From Provencibacterium sp. (GTDB lineage Bacteria > Bacillota > Clostridia > Oscillospirales > Ruminococcaceae), in assembly GCA_022792175.1 (NCBI GenBank), contig JAAWAN010000009.1, positions 92,291 through 156,290 on the forward strand: a DNA stretch of 64,000 nucleotides. Reading direction: 5' to 3'. Shown piece by piece: positions 33,251 to 60,506 of the stretch. The notes below the pieces were generated by a model that was not told the origin of the DNA, did not search any database, and saw only the letters and a program-made list of their open reading frames with translations. Numbering within the stretch: the first letter of the stretch is position 1; each line of letters begins with the position of its first letter. A program made the translations under genes and the position numbers.

Positions 33251-33817
33251 ATGAAAAGCAAAACCCATCAGCTGGCGAGCGCCGGCCTTATTGCCGCGCT
33301 CTACACCGCCCTGACCGTCGCGCTCGGGCCGCTCAGCTATCTGGCGGTGCAGGTGCGCATCTCGGAAGCGCTGACGCTGCTGCCCATCTACTCGCCCGCA
33401 GCGCTCTGGGGGGTAACGGTCGGATGTCTCATCTCCAACCTCATCGGCGTACTGCTCGGCACCAACATCATCGGCGTGTTCGATGTACTCTTCGGCACTG
33501 CCGCCACGCTGCTGGCCGCCCTCTGCAGCCGGGCGCTGCGAAATCTCCGCCTGCGCTGGCAGACAAAAGAGGGAAAAGAGCTTTCGCTGCCCATCGCCTC
33601 GGCCATTCCCCCGGTTATCCTCAACGCCCTTGTTGTCGGGCTGGAGCTCTGCTATGTACTATCCGGCGGCTTTCAGCTGAAAATCTTTCTGATTCAGGCC
33701 TTTTGGGTCGGGTTCGGCGAGCTCATCTCCTGCCTTGTGTTCGGCATGGCCCTCTGCTTCTCGCTCGAGCGCACCGGGCTTGACAAAAAGCTGTTCGGCC
33801 AGCAGGCAGCCGTATAA
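33251..33817 (+). CDS. queT: QueT family queuosine-precursor transporter
   Basis: LASAGLIAALYTALTVALGPLSYLAVQVRISEALTLLPIYSPAALWGVTVGCLISNLIG. Confidence 0.9.
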   Translation: MKSKTHQLASAGLIAALYTALTVALGPLSYLAVQVRISEALTLLPIYSPAALWGVTVGCLISNLIGVLLGTNIIGVFDVLFGTAATLLAALCSRALRNLRLRWQTKEGKELSLPIASAIPPVILNALVVGLELCYVLSGGFQLKIFLIQAFWVGFGELISCLVFGMALCFSLERTGLDKKLFGQQAAV

Positions 33818-33910
33818 AAACCCTTTGAGGGCTCATAGCTATTAAGATCCTCTGCCGGATTTACCTGTACTGGGTGCAGGCAAACAGGAGCAAACGATCA
33901 AAACATGCTG

Positions 33911-33962
33911 AATCCCCTTCGCCCCCTCCTGCTTGCGACAGGAAAGGGCGAAAGGGGATTTC
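33911..33962. terminator. Hairpin downstream of queT
   Basis: aatccccttcgccc...gggcgaaaggggatt inverted repeat. Confidence 0.6.
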
Positions 33963-34066
33963 TTTATTGGGAAGAATAGCAGCCCGGGGGGAAAGGGCAG
34001 TGCCTGCAGGCGGCAGGAAGAGCACCGTTCGATTTTCCCATCCGGGCTTTTTCTCATAAACACGCC

Positions 34067-34100
34067 AAAGGCGCCATGCGGTTTCGCATGGCGCCTTTGA
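34067..34100. terminator. Hairpin downstream of the ABC solute-binding protein gene
   Basis: caaaggcgccatgcg-gttt-cgcatggcgcctttg, perfect 15-bp stem. Confidence 0.65.
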
Positions 34101-34116
34101 GGATTTAAGGAGAAAA

Positions 34117-35796
34117 CTAACGGGCATTGTAACGGTCGAGGGCCGCCTGCCGCAGCTCGAGAGCGCGGTCAATATCCATACCCTGAACGGTGGGTACAAA
34201 CTCGTTTTCAAAGGCATCCTCGGGAACCTGACCCATGATGTACTTAACGGCAAATTCTTTATAGTAGTCATCAACAGCGGTGTAAATCCGGCTGTACTCG
34301 CTGCCTTCATCAACCGACTGGGTGACGGGGGGCAGGAGGGTCTTGTCGCGGTCGTTGTCCCAGATTTCGCCGGCTTCGATCTGCTCGGGGAGAACCAGCA
34401 GCTGCTCCTGGTATTCCCGGCGCTGAATCATAACGCCATTGTAGGGAGAACGGGCCCAGTAGCTCCACTCGGCCTTGTTGTCGGCAGCCTTGGCAATCTC
34501 GTCCTTCATCTTCGGATAGCCATCGACCATGTCATAGGACTTGCCTTCCTGGCCATAGTTCATGTACAGGTCGCCCTCTTCGGTGTAGCCGTAGTTGAGC
34601 AGCTTGACGCAGGCCTCCAGATTCTTCGACTTCGGGCTGACGGTAGCGCAGATATAGTTCTGGTAGAAATCCTGCTCCTTCTGGCCGAACTGCGGCTTCT
34701 CGCCCTTGTTCAGCGTCGGGTAGGGAGCGGCAACCAGATGTCCATCCGGTACGCTTTCCTTCAGAACGGGGGTCCAGGCGCCGATGCCGCCGCCAGTGTT
34801 GCCGATGGTCGCAGCCGCGCGGCCGCCGCCCATCAGGTTGTTGAGCTCGGTGGAGGTGTTGGTGGCAAAGTTCTTGTCAAGCAGGCCGTCGGCATACCAG
34901 CCGCGCAGCAGCTGCAGAACATTCTTAAAGCCATCCTGAATCGGGCCGTAGACGCACTTGCCGTCTACCTGGTAGATGCCGGGCATCGCACCCCAAGCGC
35001 AGAACGGGCCGTCACCCAGGAAGTTGTTGATGTCGTTGACAGAGAACGGGAACTCAATGCCCATCTCCTTAAAGGCGGTGAGCGCAGCCGTCCACTCGTC
35101 AATCGTCTCCGGAATGGCAAGGCCAGCCTGGGTCAGCAGGTCTTCGCGGATGACCGGGCCACGCCATACGCACAGCTCAGGATGCTCGGGATCGCGGATG
35201 AAGCCAAAGCACCAGTAGCGGCCAGAGTCGGTCTTGAACTTTTTGTCAAGGTCAGCGTGGGTGGTGATGTACTCATAGAAATCCGGGGCCCACTGCTGAA
35301 TAGTGTCGGTCATGTCATAGACCAGCTGCTTTTTGATCGCGTCATCGGGACCGGAGGGATAGTCGTTGAGCCATGCCTTCTCGATGATGTCCGGCAGATC
35401 GCCCGAAGCGAGCAGCAGGTTAAACTGTTCGTTTTCCTGGCCAACGGCGGGGTTGATGAAGTCGAGCTGAAGCCCGGTGCGCTCCATCAGTCCGTTCACC
35501 CATTCGGTGCCGTTATCCTGAGAAACGCCCTCTTTGCGGATCAGATCGCCCGAAACCGGCTTCCAGTATCTGATAACGCCATCCTGCTGAATATCCAGCG
35601 GATAGGTTACCGAACCGGCGCCGGCCGCCTCAGCGGATGCAGCCTCAGAGGATGCCGCAGAAGCGGCAGAAGAAGCCGGAGCAGCAGAGGACGCAGGGGC
35701 AGCAGAGGAAGCGTTTCCGCCGCCTCCGGCGCAGCCCGCCGCCGTTACACCAATCACCATGGCGGCCAGGAGCGCTGAAACAATTCTCTTGTTCAC
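34117..35796 (-). CDS. ABC transporter extracellular solute-binding lipoprotein (LplA-like)
   Basis: Lipobox VTAAGCAGGGG followed by an Ala/Ser-rich linker; LplA-like body; last gene after two permeases. Confidence 0.9.
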   Translation of the reverse strand: MNKRIVSALLAAMVIGVTAAGCAGGGGNASSAAPASSAAPASSAASAASSEAASAEAAGAGSVTYPLDIQQDGVIRYWKPVSGDLIRKEGVSQDNGTEWVNGLMERTGLQLDFINPAVGQENEQFNLLLASGDLPDIIEKAWLNDYPSGPDDAIKKQLVYDMTDTIQQWAPDFYEYITTHADLDKKFKTDSGRYWCFGFIRDPEHPELCVWRGPVIREDLLTQAGLAIPETIDEWTAALTAFKEMGIEFPFSVNDINNFLGDGPFCAWGAMPGIYQVDGKCVYGPIQDGFKNVLQLLRGWYADGLLDKNFATNTSTELNNLMGGGRAAATIGNTGGGIGAWTPVLKESVPDGHLVAAPYPTLNKGEKPQFGQKEQDFYQNYICATVSPKSKNLEACVKLLNYGYTEEGDLYMNYGQEGKSYDMVDGYPKMKDEIAKAADNKAEWSYWARSPYNGVMIQRREYQEQLLVLPEQIEAGEIWDNDRDKTLLPPVTQSVDEGSEYSRIYTAVDDYYKEFAVKYIMGQVPEDAFENEFVPTVQGMDIDRALELRQAALDRYNAR

Positions 35797-35866
35797 AAGC
35801 AATAACCTCCTACAATTTGAGTTGACTTATTTCCATATCCGTGCCAGGCACGGAGAATGGCCGTTT

Positions 35867-36763
35867 TCATCCTTTTACGGCGCCGACCAGCACGCCCTTC
35901 GTAAAGTACTTCTGCAGGAAGGGGTACAGGCAGAGAATCGGGAAGGATACGACAACGATGAGCGCATATTTAATCGTTTCGGCAATGAGCGTAAAGTCCG
36001 CCGAGGTGTTTGCCATCGAAGAGGTATCATTGCTGATGAGGATTTCGCGCAGCAGCAGCTGCAGCGGGAATTTGCTGCGGTCCTGTATGTAGAGCATCGC
36101 GGAGAACCAGGAGTTCCAGTGGGCAACACCATAGTAGAGAACCAGCACAGCGAGCACTGCCTTGGAGAGCGGAATATAAATGCGGAAGAGGATGGTGAAC
36201 TCACTCGCTCCGTCGAGTCTGGCGGATTCCTCCAGGCTCTCCGGCAGGCCGAGGAAGGAGGTACGCAGAATGATGCAGTTGAAGGTGTTGATGCTCGCCG
36301 GGATAATCAGCGCCCAGAGCGAGTTATACAGCCCCAGATCGCGCACATTGAGGTACTCCGGAATCATGCCGCCGCCGAAGAACATGGTGAACATGATCAT
36401 CATCATGACATATTTCGCGAGGAACTGGTTTTTGCGGGTAACGAAGAAAGCCGCCAGCGAGGTCATGATAATATTGACGGTGGTGCCCACGATAACGACG
36501 AACAGCGTTACCATATATCCCTGCGGGATAGCAGGGTTGCGGGCCACATACCGGTAGGCCGCCCAGGAGAAGCCCTCCGGCCAGAAGAGAAGCCCCCGAT
36601 GGGTCATCAGCAGATTGGATTCGCTGACCGAGGCCATCAGTACATGCCAGATCGGGTAGAACATGATAAAGGCGATAAAGAGCATAAACAGAATGTTGAA
36701 AACATTGAAAATGCGCTCGCCGGTTGTAACCTGAATCTTGTTTTTCGGATTCGTTTTTTCCAT
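35867..36763 (-). CDS. Carbohydrate ABC transporter permease (LplC/YtcP-like)
   Basis: FNILFMLFIAFIMFYPIWHVLMASVSES...EESARLDGASEFTILFRIYIPLSKAVLAVL (EAA motif). Confidence 0.93.
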   Translation of the reverse strand: MEKTNPKNKIQVTTGERIFNVFNILFMLFIAFIMFYPIWHVLMASVSESNLLMTHRGLLFWPEGFSWAAYRYVARNPAIPQGYMVTLFVVIVGTTVNIIMTSLAAFFVTRKNQFLAKYVMMMIMFTMFFGGGMIPEYLNVRDLGLYNSLWALIIPASINTFNCIILRTSFLGLPESLEESARLDGASEFTILFRIYIPLSKAVLAVLVLYYGVAHWNSWFSAMLYIQDRSKFPLQLLLREILISNDTSSMANTSADFTLIAETIKYALIVVVSFPILCLYPFLQKYFTKGVLVGAVKG

Positions 36764-36794
36764 TTTGGCCTTTCCTCCTTTTCTGAAATACCGG

Positions 36795-37769
36795 TTACCA
36801 GAGCGCCGTATCGGTCAGCTTGCTGCTGATCTTGTTGGAAATCAGCAGGATGATGACGTTGATAACCGAGTTGAAGAGTCCTACCGCCGCGCTGTAGCTG
36901 AAGCGCGCCTGCTGCAGGCCGGAGCGGTAGACATAGGAGGAGATAACGTCGGCGGTCTCATAAACCTGCGGGCTGTAGAGGAGGATGATCTTTTCATAGC
37001 CGACCGTCATCGCGTTGCCCATGCGCAGCAGCAGCATGGTGATGATGGTGGGCAGAATACCCGGCAGCGTTACATGCCAGACCTGCTTCCAGCGCCCGGC
37101 CCCATCCACGGTGGCCGCCTCATACAGCTCCTGGTTAACGCCGGTCAGCGCCGCCAGATAAACAATTGAGCTGTAGCCCACCGTCTGCCAGATGTCGGAA
37201 ACGACATAGATGGGAACGAACATGCTCGCATAGTTTAAAAGCGAGGCCTTTTCCTCCGCAAAGCCGAGGGAGGAAATAATCTGGGCAATGAACCCATCCG
37301 CCCCGACAAAGGTACGGATAAGACCGCAGATAACGACCAGGGAGATGAAGTGCGGCAGGTAGCTGATCGTCTGCATCACCTTGGAGAAGCGCGCATTCTT
37401 CAGCTCATTTAAAAGCAGCGCGAAGATGATGGGCATCGGGAAGCCGAAGATAATCGTGCTCAGGCTGATGGTAAGGGTATTTTTAAGAACGCGCCCGAAG
37501 TCCTTGCTGGTGAAGAAATCGGTAAAGTTGCGAAAGCCCACCCAGCTGTCGAAGTCAAGGATCGGCGCGCCGGGATAGTAATCCGTAAAGGAAATAAACA
37601 GGCCATACATCGGCTTATAGCGGAAGAGTATGTAGAAAGCAATAACCGGCAGAACCATCAAATACAAAATGGGGCTGCCCTTGATATCCCGGGCAATCTT
37701 TTTGTAGAAGGGCAGCTGCTCATAGGGTACGCGCGGCTTTTGAGCGGTGGATACAGCTTTTGTCACCAT
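36795..37769 (-). CDS. ABC transporter permease (LplB-like)
   Basis: GSPILYLMVLPVIAFYILFRYKPMYGLFISFTDY...ELYEAATVDGAGRWKQVWHVTLPGILPTI. Confidence 0.93.
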   Translation of the reverse strand: MVTKAVSTAQKPRVPYEQLPFYKKIARDIKGSPILYLMVLPVIAFYILFRYKPMYGLFISFTDYYPGAPILDFDSWVGFRNFTDFFTSKDFGRVLKNTLTISLSTIIFGFPMPIIFALLLNELKNARFSKVMQTISYLPHFISLVVICGLIRTFVGADGFIAQIISSLGFAEEKASLLNYASMFVPIYVVSDIWQTVGYSSIVYLAALTGVNQELYEAATVDGAGRWKQVWHVTLPGILPTIITMLLLRMGNAMTVGYEKIILLYSPQVYETADVISSYVYRSGLQQARFSYSAAVGLFNSVINVIILLISNKISSKLTDTALW

Positions 37770-37898
37770 GTAAACTCTCCCTTTTCAAAAATTCTGACAG
37801 GGGCTGCATCATCGCTTTCCCTGCACCAAAACCATTCCCGGCCCGAATGACTTAAAAGTATACATTTTGCTACAGAGCAAACAGCGGAAAAAGGGACG

Positions 37899-37946
37899 AA
37901 AAAAGCTGCCTTTTTATCCGTTTGGCCGGAAAAAGGCAGCTTTTTT
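37899..37946. terminator. Strong bidirectional intrinsic terminator inside the ABC operon leader
   Basis: AAAAAAGCTGCCTTTTT-14 nt-AAAAAGGCAGCTTTTTT, perfect 17-bp arms ending in a T run. Confidence 0.9.
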
Positions 37947-37971
37947 GATTTGGATGGAATGTATAGCTTTA

Positions 37972-38049
37972 TCAACTATCGGGCAGTCCAAGGCAGCAAT
38001 TCTTTGGATTCTGCGAATGTTCAGGCCGGAGGGCGAAAAAAGAAAACAT
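37972..38049 (-). CDS. Candidate leader peptide/uORF (25 aa)
   Basis: ATG...TGA encoding MFSFFALRPEHSQNPKNCCLGLPDS, RBS GGAGAGG 7 nt upstream, about 30 nt after the predicted TSS. Confidence 0.5.
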   Translation of the reverse strand: MFSFFALRPEHSQNPKNCCLGLPDS

Positions 38050-38086
38050 CCGATTTCCTCTCCGCAGGTTTTATCCTGTGTTACCC

Positions 38087-38115
38087 AGTATAACGCACTA
38101 AAACTTTATTGTCAA
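38087..38115 (-). promoter_or_regulatory. Near-consensus sigma-70 promoter for the ABC operon leader
   Basis: Minus strand TTGACA-N17-TATACT. Confidence 0.9.
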
Positions 38116-38166
38116 TACATTTTACTGGTTTCTAGCAAAATCTTTTGTAGATATAGCATATACAAA

Positions 38167-38203
38167 AACCCGGAGATGGCTGAAAAAAGCCATTTCTCCG
38201 GGT
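38167..38203 (-). terminator. Terminator downstream of the hydrogenase gene
   Basis: aacccggagatggct-gaaaaa-agccatttctccgggtt. Confidence 0.65.
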
Positions 38204-38231
38204 TCCTTGCACAAAAAAGGGAGTGAAAAAG

Positions 38232-39737
38232 TCAGTGTTCTTTTTTCAGCTCGCCAATGTAGCCGCTCTCGGTAGCAAGCGGCTGCCTGGAGTCGCGGGC
38301 GAACTTGGTGACCGCCGTCGCGGCCTTCTTGAGCGGCTCGAGCGTACCCGCGCCGCCAATGCAGCCGCCGGGGCAGGCCATCCCCTCAAGGATATAGCCG
38401 TTGCGTTTGCCTGCCTTGGCAAGGGTGAGCATCTTGCGGCAATCAGCGAGTCCCTCCGCCCGGTCAATCTTCACCTCGTGGCCGGGGTAAAGCTCCTTGA
38501 CGCAGGCCTCGATAGCCGAGGCAACGCCGCCCGCAACACCGTAGCCGCGGCCGCTGGCGGTTGCCTCATCGCGCATCTGCCCATCCTCATAAGCGCCGAA
38601 TTCAATCTCCTTGGCGGCGAACATGCCCATCAGCTCTTCATAGGTGATGACGAAGTCGACGTCGCTGCGCACCGTCCGGCGCAGCGCCTCCAGCTTTTTG
38701 GAGGTGCAGGGGCCGATAAAGACCACCCGCGCATCTGGATGCTCCTTTTTGATAATGCGCGCCGTGGCGACCATCGGCGTCAGCTCGGTGGAAACGCAGT
38801 GAGCAATCGTTGGGAAGAGGGTTTTGGCCATAACCGACCAAGAGGGGCAGCAGCTGGTCGCGAGAAACGGCTGCTTCTCCCCAAGCCCGTTGACATAGTG
38901 GTGCGCCTCGGAGACCGCGCCGAGGTCCGCGCCTACCGCGACCTCATAAACATCGGCAAATCCCAGGTCAAGAAGGGCCTTACGCACCCGCTCGGGCGTT
39001 GCCAGCGGACCAAACTGCCCAACAAAGGAAGGAGCTATTTCCGCAATAATGTTCTCCTTTTCGCGCAGCGCATGGCAGAGCTGCAGAATCTGCGATTTAT
39101 CCGCAATGGCAGCAAACGGGCAATGAACGAGGCACTGCCCGCAGGCAACGCACTTGTCGTGGTTAATCTTGGCGCGCCCGAGATAGTCGCTTTCAATCGC
39201 ATCCACCCCGCAGCTGGAGGCGCAGGGACGCTCATATTTCACAATCGCGCTGTAGGGGCAGACCTCGGCGCAGCGCCCGCATTTGAGGCACTTGTCCTTA
39301 TCGATTTGGCTGTGCCCATCCACCATTGAGGTGGCCTGCACCGGGCAGACGCTCGTGCAGGGGTGCGCCAGGCATCCGCGGCAGTTGTCCGTCACATAAT
39401 ACTGCTTGGGCGGGCAGGCCTCGCAGGCAAAGGGAATAACGTTGATAAGCGGCGGCTCATAGACCAGCCGGTCGATGGCGGCCGCCTCAATGCCCTCGGA
39501 AACCGGGGCATGCTTGTCCGCCGGACGCACATCCAGTCCGCAGGCCAGACGCAGCCGCTCGCCGACGATAGCGCGCTCCTTAAAGACGCTGTCGCGGTAA
39601 CTGGCCACCTCGCCGGGAATAATCTTATAGGGCAGCTCCTCCATGCGCGAATAGTCGCCGCCCTCAAATGCCAGTCGGGCAATCTCCTGAAAAACCTGGC
39701 GGCGGATCTTGGTTACAGGCGTATAAATACCTTTCAT
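38232..39737 (-). CDS. Monomeric [FeFe]-hydrogenase-type protein with N-terminal 4Fe-4S ferredoxin repeats (group B-like)
   Basis: CxxCxxCxxxCP clusters; H-cluster motifs TSCCPSW, IGPCTSKKLE and EGMACPGGCIGGAG. Confidence 0.85.
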   Translation of the reverse strand: MKGIYTPVTKIRRQVFQEIARLAFEGGDYSRMEELPYKIIPGEVASYRDSVFKERAIVGERLRLACGLDVRPADKHAPVSEGIEAAAIDRLVYEPPLINVIPFACEACPPKQYYVTDNCRGCLAHPCTSVCPVQATSMVDGHSQIDKDKCLKCGRCAEVCPYSAIVKYERPCASSCGVDAIESDYLGRAKINHDKCVACGQCLVHCPFAAIADKSQILQLCHALREKENIIAEIAPSFVGQFGPLATPERVRKALLDLGFADVYEVAVGADLGAVSEAHHYVNGLGEKQPFLATSCCPSWSVMAKTLFPTIAHCVSTELTPMVATARIIKKEHPDARVVFIGPCTSKKLEALRRTVRSDVDFVITYEELMGMFAAKEIEFGAYEDGQMRDEATASGRGYGVAGGVASAIEACVKELYPGHEVKIDRAEGLADCRKMLTLAKAGKRNGYILEGMACPGGCIGGAGTLEPLKKAATAVTKFARDSRQPLATESGYIGELKKEH

Positions 39738-57868: not shown

Positions 57869-59620
57869 CTATTCCACCCGCAGGCGGATATCTGTCTGCT
57901 CCCCCGCACGCAGGCGCAGCAAAAGCGGAACGCTCAAAAAGCCGCCAACCGGATTGAAAACGCGCGGCTGCGGCAGCGTGCGCAGCTCGATGGGAGAGGA
58001 TGCCTCTATAACGAGCGTTCCCCGCCCGCGGCCAATGCGTGCACATCCCCCCTCTATTTGTACAGGGTCGTTCGCCCGGGCGATGACCGGCAGGCAGTAA
58101 ACGGCATTTTCCGCTTCGGCTGAAAGGGCCAGGTGAAACACCTCGCCGGCCGCCTCATAGCGGATGCGGTAGGCGCAGCTGCCATTCTGTGCCCCATCCC
58201 GCAGGATTCCCTCTGCCTGTACAGCAGGCGTCCCCTGCTCCGGCTGCATGCAGGCTGAGCGGTCGTTTACCGAGCGATACCACCGGCCGTTTTCCTGATA
58301 CTCAATGCGCGGGGTCTGGCAGATATCCTCAAAATACTGCGGCAGCTGCATGTTGTTTGCTTCTACCAGCTGATATTCGGTCATGCTCGCGGCGCAGACC
58401 GGACCAACCGTCCTGTGCCAGAGCATCGTCAGCGCGCCGCCCATGGCATGTCCGCTCTGCAGATAGTCGATATCGTGGTCGGCCACCGTCGCGCGCCAGG
58501 GGCCGCCTGCCAGCAGCGCCACCCGGGGGGTGGGATAGTAGCGCAGCCCCTGTGCCGTCTCGCGCGGAAGGGGAAGGCGGGGAGAGGGCGGGGCAAAGCC
58601 GCATTCGCACATGGCAGTCAGCGCCTTGGCATGGCAGAAGGTGTGGTGAACGCAGGGGGGCTCGCCCGCCTCGGCATACATTGGCCCGCCGTGCAGCAGC
58701 CCGTTATGGGTGCAGGCGCGGTAGAGTTCAAAATTCCTCTGCGCCGCCTCACCGAAAAGGGGGCTCCCCTTCGCGAGCGGCGCATATCCCACCTGGCAGC
58801 CATCCGAGGTGCGGCTGCCCCAATAGGTCCATTTGTTGCTGCGGTTGCCCCAGCTGTTGTCCCAGGCGCCGTCCGGCAGCATAAACTGCAGGTGCTCCTG
58901 CATCGAAGCCATCACCTTTTCCAGAATCCTCTCATCACCGCTGTGCTCGGCGTAGCTGTAAAGCCCGGGAAGCGACTCCTCCACATTGTATCCCAGATCC
59001 ACCGGCCGGCAGCCCTTCGGGGAAACCTCGCCGGTCGAATGTCCCTCGCCGAAAATCAGCCCGTCGGGTGCAAAAAATTCCAGGGCCCTGTCCGCCAGCT
59101 CCCTGGCCTGCGCCAGGTAGCTTTCCTTCTGAAGGACCCGCCCGGCCACCGCCAGCGCCGCCGTACAGGTGATGGGATAGTTTACATTGGCGTTCGCCCT
59201 AGGGATGAAGTCCGCCAGAAAGGCGGCGCAGCTGTCCAGCCGCTCCCGCCAGCGGCGGTGGGTGAGCGGGTCGAGCAGCTCCCCATAGTAGAGCAGGGCC
59301 TCGCCCAGCTGGATGGTGAAGAAAACGGTAATCCCCCGCCAGGAGGAGTTGGTATCGTTGACAAGGCTGCCGTCCGGGCGGGACATGTTATTTTCCGCCC
59401 AGTTAAAAAGGAGCTTTGCGCTCGTAAGATACTTCTCCTCCCCCGTTTCATGATAGAGGTACATCATGGGGTGAATGGCATCGGCGCACCGGCCGTGGAT
59501 GCGCGCGCAGGAGGGGCAGAGGATTCCACCATAGAGGGCAGGCGCCTTCTTTTCGGTCACCTGCAGCTCCAGCAGGGTATCGCACCACTCTTTAAGCAGC
59601 GCAAAATATTCGTTAGCCAT
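57869..59620 (-). CDS. (alpha/alpha)-barrel carbohydrate-active enzyme-like protein (six-hairpin / alginate-lyase-like)
   Basis: DAIHPMMYLYHETGEEKYLTSAKLLFNWAENNM...WDNSWGNRSNKWTYWGSRTSDG; adjacent to an lplC-like permease remnant. Confidence 0.65.
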   Translation of the reverse strand: MANEYFALLKEWCDTLLELQVTEKKAPALYGGILCPSCARIHGRCADAIHPMMYLYHETGEEKYLTSAKLLFNWAENNMSRPDGSLVNDTNSSWRGITVFFTIQLGEALLYYGELLDPLTHRRWRERLDSCAAFLADFIPRANANVNYPITCTAALAVAGRVLQKESYLAQARELADRALEFFAPDGLIFGEGHSTGEVSPKGCRPVDLGYNVEESLPGLYSYAEHSGDERILEKVMASMQEHLQFMLPDGAWDNSWGNRSNKWTYWGSRTSDGCQVGYAPLAKGSPLFGEAAQRNFELYRACTHNGLLHGGPMYAEAGEPPCVHHTFCHAKALTAMCECGFAPPSPRLPLPRETAQGLRYYPTPRVALLAGGPWRATVADHDIDYLQSGHAMGGALTMLWHRTVGPVCAASMTEYQLVEANNMQLPQYFEDICQTPRIEYQENGRWYRSVNDRSACMQPEQGTPAVQAEGILRDGAQNGSCAYRIRYEAAGEVFHLALSAEAENAVYCLPVIARANDPVQIEGGCARIGRGRGTLVIEASSPIELRTLPQPRVFNPVGGFLSVPLLLRLRAGEQTDIRLRVE

Positions 59621-59715
59621 TGTAAAACATCCTTTCAGCAGATATTGGGGTCATGGGCGGCAAACGCCCGCCTTATGTCTCTATTTCCGACTGCCGTTTT
59701 TGGCGGCCGGGCCTT

Positions 59716-60063
59716 TCATCCCTTGATAGCGCCGATCATAACGCCCTTCACAAAATATTTCTGCACAAAGGGGAAAACCACCATCAGCGGCAGGCTGAAA
59801 ATGCTCATCACCGCGTACTTGAGCGTCAGCAGATAGAGGGAGCGTTCGGCTCCCGCCCCCGGTCATCATATCCATCGACTGGTTTTCAATCAGCATTTCG
59901 CGCAGGAATATCTGCAGCGGATACCTATTGCGGCCGCGCAGGTAGATCATGGCGCTGAACCAGGAATTCCAGTGGAATGAGGCATAAAACAGCGTAATCA
60001 CTATAATAATCGGCATGGACAGCGGTAAGACAATCTGCCAAAAGGTGCGGTATTCCCCCCGTT
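59716..60063 (-). pseudogene. 5'-truncated, frameshifted carbohydrate ABC transporter permease (LplC-like)
   Basis: EYRTFWQIVLPLSMPIIIVITLFYASFHWNSWFSAMIYLRGRNRYPLQIFLREMLIENQSMDMM, then after a frameshift near 59850-59865 ERSLYLLTLKYAVMSIFSLPLMVVFPFVQKYFVKGVMIGAIKG. No N-terminal half is present. Confidence 0.85.
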
Positions 60064-60245
60064 TGCAGATTTGGCCATTACCTTATAACGAGAGCCATTT
60101 TAACGTTTTTTAAGCAGATGATAGGGCTGCCGCCCGGAACATACCGCTGCCTGTTTCCGCAGCCGCAACGGCCAGCTGCAGAACCTTTCCAAAGAGGTTG
60201 AGCAGGATGTCAGCCAGCTTGTTCTGACAGACACCCGATAAAAAG

Positions 60246-60286
60246 GCAAAGGGCGCAGGCCCTGTAAAAGCCTGCACCCTTTGCCC
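60246..60286. terminator. Terminator downstream of the Cys-rich small gene
   Basis: ggcaaagggcgcaggc-9 nt-gcctgcaccctttgcc. Confidence 0.7.
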
Positions 60287-60302
60287 TTTCTGCCGGAAGA
60301 TG

Positions 60303-60506
60303 TCAGCAGCCGCAGCCATCGTTGCAGCAGCAGTTGTTGCAGCCACAGCCGTTGTTGCAGCAGCAGTTGTTGTTGCAGCCGCAGTTATTGTTGTTGTTGC
60401 AGCCACAGCCGCTGTTGCAGCCGCAGCCATTGGAGCCCCAGCCTCCGCAGCCACAGAGAAGAAGGACGATAATAAGTATCCACCAGCAGCCATTGAATCC
60501 ATTCAT
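60303..60506 (-). CDS. Small membrane-anchored Cys/Asn/Gly-rich repeat protein
   Basis: MNGFNGCWWILIIVLLLCGCGGWGSNGCGCNSGCGCNNNNNCGCNNNCCCNNGCGCNNCCCNDGCGC; RBS aggagg 9 nt upstream; terminator downstream. Confidence 0.8.
   Translation of the reverse strand: MNGFNGCWWILIIVLLLCGCGGWGSNGCGCNSGCGCNNNNNCGCNNNCCCNNGCGCNNCCCNDGCGC

Follow-up and report, generated by a model that had tools for sequence, protein, structure and literature searches.

A predicted terminated leader before a lineage-specific lpl-type ABC operon of Provencibacterium sp. carries an element shared with a second transporter operon

Does the DNA in front of an lpl-type (sugar-type) ABC transporter operon of Provencibacterium sp. 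encode a conditional attenuator, or a transcript that simply ends ahead of the transporter genes? The question was raised by a first-pass annotation of a 64,000-nt window (the whole stretch of DNA that we analyzed; GCA_022792175.1, contig JAAWAN010000009.1, positions 92,291-156,290 of the forward strand), which described on the minus strand a promoter (TTGACA-N17-TATACT, 38115-38087), the RBS GGAGAGG with a uORF (38049-37972), and a perfect 17-bp-arm terminator (37946-37899). All of these features were found where that annotation had placed them, and its observation is confirmed. Its interpretation held in part: a terminated transcript ahead of the transporter is a well supported reading of the sequence, whereas conditional termination through the uORF or through pairing of GCTGCCTT was not supported, and an RNA switch in the leader is not supported. 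The features, in the direction of transcription, are the following.

38165-38206, minus strand: terminator that ends the upstream hydrogenase-like gene and sets it apart from P1
38115-38139, minus strand: weak related sequence, TTTGCT-N7-AGTAAAATGTAT, abutting the P1 -35
38087-38115, minus strand: sigma-A-type promoter P1, TTGACA-N17-TATACT, 11/12 consensus, TSS expected near 38080
37972-38049, minus strand: uORF of 25 codons, MFSFFALRPEHSQNPKNCCLGLPDS, with an ATG start and the SD GGAGAGG
37958-37979, minus strand: element C, ATAGTTGATAAAGCTATACATT, dyad ATAG-N9-CTAT, lying across the final uORF codons and the stop, and common to a second lpl-type leader
37899-37946, minus strand: intrinsic terminator with 17-bp perfect arms and U6 at the 3' end, recognized by arm complementarity and folding
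37857-37881, minus strand: weak operator-like dyad, TTTGCT-N4-AGCAAA then ATGTATACT, with a possible -10 (TATACT, 37862-37857) and no good -35
36795-37769, minus strand: lplB-type permease
35867-36763, minus strand: lplC-type permease
34117-35802, minus strand: solute-binding lipoprotein (SBP, LplA-type), which closes the operon and owes its assignment to position, lipobox, and paralogues

Only 11 sites in the 64-kb window, P1 among them, matched the consensus at 11 or more of 12 bases. The hydrogenase-like gene is followed by a separate terminator (38206-38165), so the leader hairpin must belong to a transcript that begins downstream of that terminator. The arms of this hairpin (37946-37930 and 37915-37899) were complementary at 17 of 17 positions, and it folded at -26.6 kcal/mol (z -7.3), with a pair probability near 1 across most of the stem and a 5' arm that was not sequestered by RNA upstream. 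It thus combines the stable stem and the U-run of an intrinsic terminator. One terminator scan missed the hairpin, the outer loop of which is probably beyond the limit of that scan; a second, custom scan found it. From the hairpin to the lplB ATG there are 129 nt (earlier given as about 130 nt).

The sequence GGAGAGG sits seven nt 5' of the uORF ATG. When the leader was dinucleotide-shuffled, 4% of the shuffles contained an SD-led ATG ORF of 15 or more codons; a uORF start with a good SD is therefore fairly rare by chance. The codon statistics of the uORF were those of non-coding sequence, its codon log-odds being lower than that of every 24-codon stretch sampled from the confident genes of the window, and two Cys codons were the nearest thing in it to a run of regulatory codons. 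No relatives of the uORF were found in the host's own genome or in the genus or family genomes searched. We measured 25 nt between its stop and the hairpin, one fewer than the 26 nt first reported, and, given the established size of the ribosome footprint, a ribosome halted at the stop would not be expected to cover the stem. With a ribosome that would not reach the hairpin, and a uORF that looks non-coding and for which no relatives were found, the earlier proposal of translation-coupled termination is not supported.

The hydrogenase-like gene was conserved in two genomes of the same genus, G001 (79%) and G002 (91%). In G001 (locus L136), queT and the hydrogenase-like gene were direct convergent neighbors with no transporter operon between them; in G002 (locus L135), both genes were present and another gene followed the hydrogenase-like gene. 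In this comparison, which took in positions 33817-38232, the lpl operon and its leader were missing at the site in both genomes, which makes them lineage-specific at this site: the operon between queT and the hydrogenase-like gene is a lineage-specific gain or loss, and the leader either came with it or arose later. The SBP (34117-35802) had no Pfam or NCBIfam match. Elsewhere in the window, at 59681-60109 on the minus strand, there is an lplC-type permease fragment, the C-terminal part only, before a gene at 57869-59620, which looks like a decayed transporter operon. Also on the minus strand, 60303-60506 encodes a small protein rich in Cys, Gly, and Asn (MNGFNGCWWILIIVLLLCGCGGWGSNGCGC...); the gene has a good RBS and its own terminator (60243-60287).

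Leader DNA had no match in 100 relatives or in plasmids and phages, and among 397 other genomes of the family there was a single match of 37 nt (G200), to the terminator region only. The first-pass annotation had offered a lack of conservation in close relatives as grounds against itself; that lack was found for DNA in the genus and family genomes, a comparison that is not a fair test as it includes no close orthologous operon. The lplB permease has many paralogues, and its closest homologues were 60-61% identical. The promoter-uORF-terminator layout was present at 0 of about 109 homologous loci, many of which instead carried an SBP gene and then, 20-90 nt ahead of the permease, a terminator-like hairpin. 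A hairpin between an SBP-type gene and the first permease recurred at loci L009, L013, L015, L021, L022, L025, L026, L069, L070, and L117. This recurrent hairpin of lpl-type operons probably sets how much SBP is made relative to permease. In the closest operons (60-61% permease identity) the order is SBP-hairpin-lplB-lplC, and a hairpin before lplB is therefore ordinary among lpl-type operons. Permease-first operons of the genus had promoter-like leader sequence and no terminator except those of upstream genes, which indicates that the leader terminator described here is not a conserved device.

A weak BLAST match within the host's own genome (expectation 0.007) revealed a 21-nt motif, ATAGTTGATAAA[G/T]CTATACAT, at 37979-37959, within element C. 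This motif occurred exactly twice in the 3.05-Mb genome. The second copy (G000:C37:231908-231929) lies on the same strand as a further lpl-type SBP gene, 37 nt before its ATG, and the two leaders were identical at all 20 specified bases. When two or fewer mismatches were allowed, the element was found in three other genomes of 398, which is about the reversed-control rate. Because the second copy falls just 5' of one among about twelve SBP genes of the genome, and in the same orientation, a coincidence of match, place, and orientation is much less likely, about 1e-6 jointly by our estimate. The same element thus stands upstream of both lpl-type operons beyond what chance would give. Its position is about +101 from the putative TSS here and about +119 on C37, where, in addition, the putative -10/TSS carries a 10-bp dyad overlapped by a 14-nt inverted copy. 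We read element C from its sequence as a candidate operator for a shared regulator; no regulator gene was recognized beside either operon. The C37 leader (L182, G000:C37:221500-241000; SBP gene C37:230137-231870) also contains a 21-bp perfect palindrome, AGATCTGATATTTTTGGTGTATACACCAAAAATATCAGATCT, between inverted copies of element C.

Weaker repeats were seen at both promoter-like sites. In the whole genome, AGYAAAATGTAT occurred exactly only at 38126-38115, abutting the P1 -35, and at 37871-37860, after the terminator and over the TATACT; both sites are preceded by TTTGCT. Considered within the leader alone, a repeat of the AGYAAAATGTAT type was not beyond shuffles. The AAAATGTAT repeats at the two sites were rejected as an operator, as the repeat by itself scored within shuffles. 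The putative promoter downstream of the hairpin matched only about 7/12 consensus bases.

The explanation that we prefer, although with slightly less than even confidence, is that the operon is preceded by a terminated, largely constitutive leader, and that the transporter genes are reached by read-through or transcribed from a weak downstream promoter, with control by a DNA-binding regulator that recognizes element C. Transcripts from P1 would mostly end, after about 190 nt, at the strong intrinsic terminator regardless of the uORF, and the transporter genes would receive only read-through from P1, transcription from the weak promoter after the hairpin (TATACT, 37862-37857), or both. Substrate control, if any, would act on DNA, with a putative regulator binding element C (37979-37958) as at the C37 operon, and possibly also the related half-sites at 37881-37857 and 38139-38115. 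In this scheme we infer the efficiency of termination, the downstream promoter, and the regulator with its direction of action; the promoter, RBS, and terminator are of recognizable quality in the DNA itself.

A conditional attenuator would work differently, with uORF translation or a ligand choosing between terminator and antiterminator so that read-through occurs only under the right condition. The order of promoter, RBS-led uORF, terminator, and structural genes suits such a device, as does the 8-nt copy of the first terminator arm within the uORF (GCTGCCTT, 37997-37990). That copy is present, as the first-pass annotation had noted; however, an 8-mer of the arm recurred in 4.7% (leader) and 6.7% (uORF) of shuffles, and the repeat is not clearly above chance. 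The uORF copy repeats the first arm itself and not its complement; its only possible partner is the second arm, for which it must compete against the 17-bp stem formed by the closer arm. The fold with this pairing was 12.8 kcal/mol worse than the terminator fold, with a pair probability of about 1e-8, and we rejected a GCTGCCTT antiterminator, and with it the earlier suggestion of alternative pairing, on both energy and chance. The leader had no match among Rfam covariance models, and all matches from a permissive scan were far below gathering scores; a known riboswitch, T-box, or leader RNA was rejected on these grounds. With the uORF stop 25 nt 5' of the hairpin and no conservation as well, we regard an attenuator as decidedly unlikely. 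A layout of promoter, uORF, and terminator can arise in one lineage without a conserved switch, and such layouts on their own should not be taken for attenuators; we found nothing on point in the literature. Element C, over the uORF stop and 12 nt 5' of the hairpin, is placed where an RNA element could also be, and a putative protein bound to it, on RNA or as a roadblock on DNA, could make termination at the hairpin depend on regulator occupancy, which would be a new kind of regulated termination for sugar-transporter operons of this lineage. On C37, element C comes after a long hairpin, not before, and we consider this coupling highly improbable.

Two further explanations were weighed. The segment from P1 to the terminator could be a gene in its own right, for a small RNA or a small protein, lying by chance before an operon with its own promoter; the segment has its own promoter and terminator, is about 190 nt long, and follows a separately terminated gene. 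Nevertheless, it had no relative in the genomes searched, and none in plasmids or phages, the uORF codon statistics were non-coding, and leader and operon were both missing at the site in G001 and G002, and we find an independent gene unlikely. A little less unlikely is a relic of rearrangement, in which the SBP of an ancestral SBP-hairpin-lplB-lplC operon was lost or moved to the operon end, while promoter, short ORF, and the old intergenic hairpin remain. The hairpin would then be the one that once stood between SBP and lplB, of a kind that probably reduces permease output compared to SBP in the family, and the uORF would be a scar. In favor of a relic, the closest operons, G410 and G424, place the SBP before hairpin, lplB, and lplC, compared to leader-lplB-lplC-SBP in the window, and most paralogues are also SBP-first, often with a hairpin 20-90 nt before the permease. 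Four tests for a decayed SBP (C-terminus profile and free, anchored, and chained alignment) gave mixed results, and we kept the idea as a rival. Anchored at the 3' ends of the G410 and G424 SBP genes, the leader alignment beat about 98.5% of shuffles (p about 0.015 for each in this junction-restricted form, and nothing for the others), but this anchored test was chosen after looking. The unanchored alignment was not significant (216/500 and 108/500 shuffles as good), the profile of SBP C-termini found nothing in the leader, and two chained alignments (0.014 and 0.08) were in disagreeing registers.

Compared to known systems, the leader that we propose to be terminated and largely constitutive resembles trp/his-type leader-peptide attenuators in having a short ORF with an RBS between promoter and terminator; in contrast to them, it has no competing antiterminator, only two Cys codons, and a stop codon too far from the hairpin. 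It is like intrinsic (Rho-independent) 5'-leader terminators in its perfect GC-containing stem and U-run 3' of a consensus promoter, but the U-run here makes up the stem base, and no antiterminator, ligand domain, or protein-binding RNA motif was recognized. The terminator-like hairpin shortly before the first permease is also that of the SBP-hairpin-permease junctions of lpl/mal-type ABC operons, including the nearest relatives, although this operon opens with a 25-codon ORF as its first cistron and has its SBP gene last. Two operons of one class that share a dyad, one of them with an inverted partner as well, recall the two-site operator arrangements of transport operons; here there are two loci only and the regulator was not recognized. 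What is new is the 21-nt element shared with a second transporter operon, the rest of the leader being of an ordinary kind. Genomes of the host's family hold many parallel lpl-type importers with substrates and regulators to be found, and element C, common to just two importers, offers a small handle toward a regulator and a co-regulated pair.
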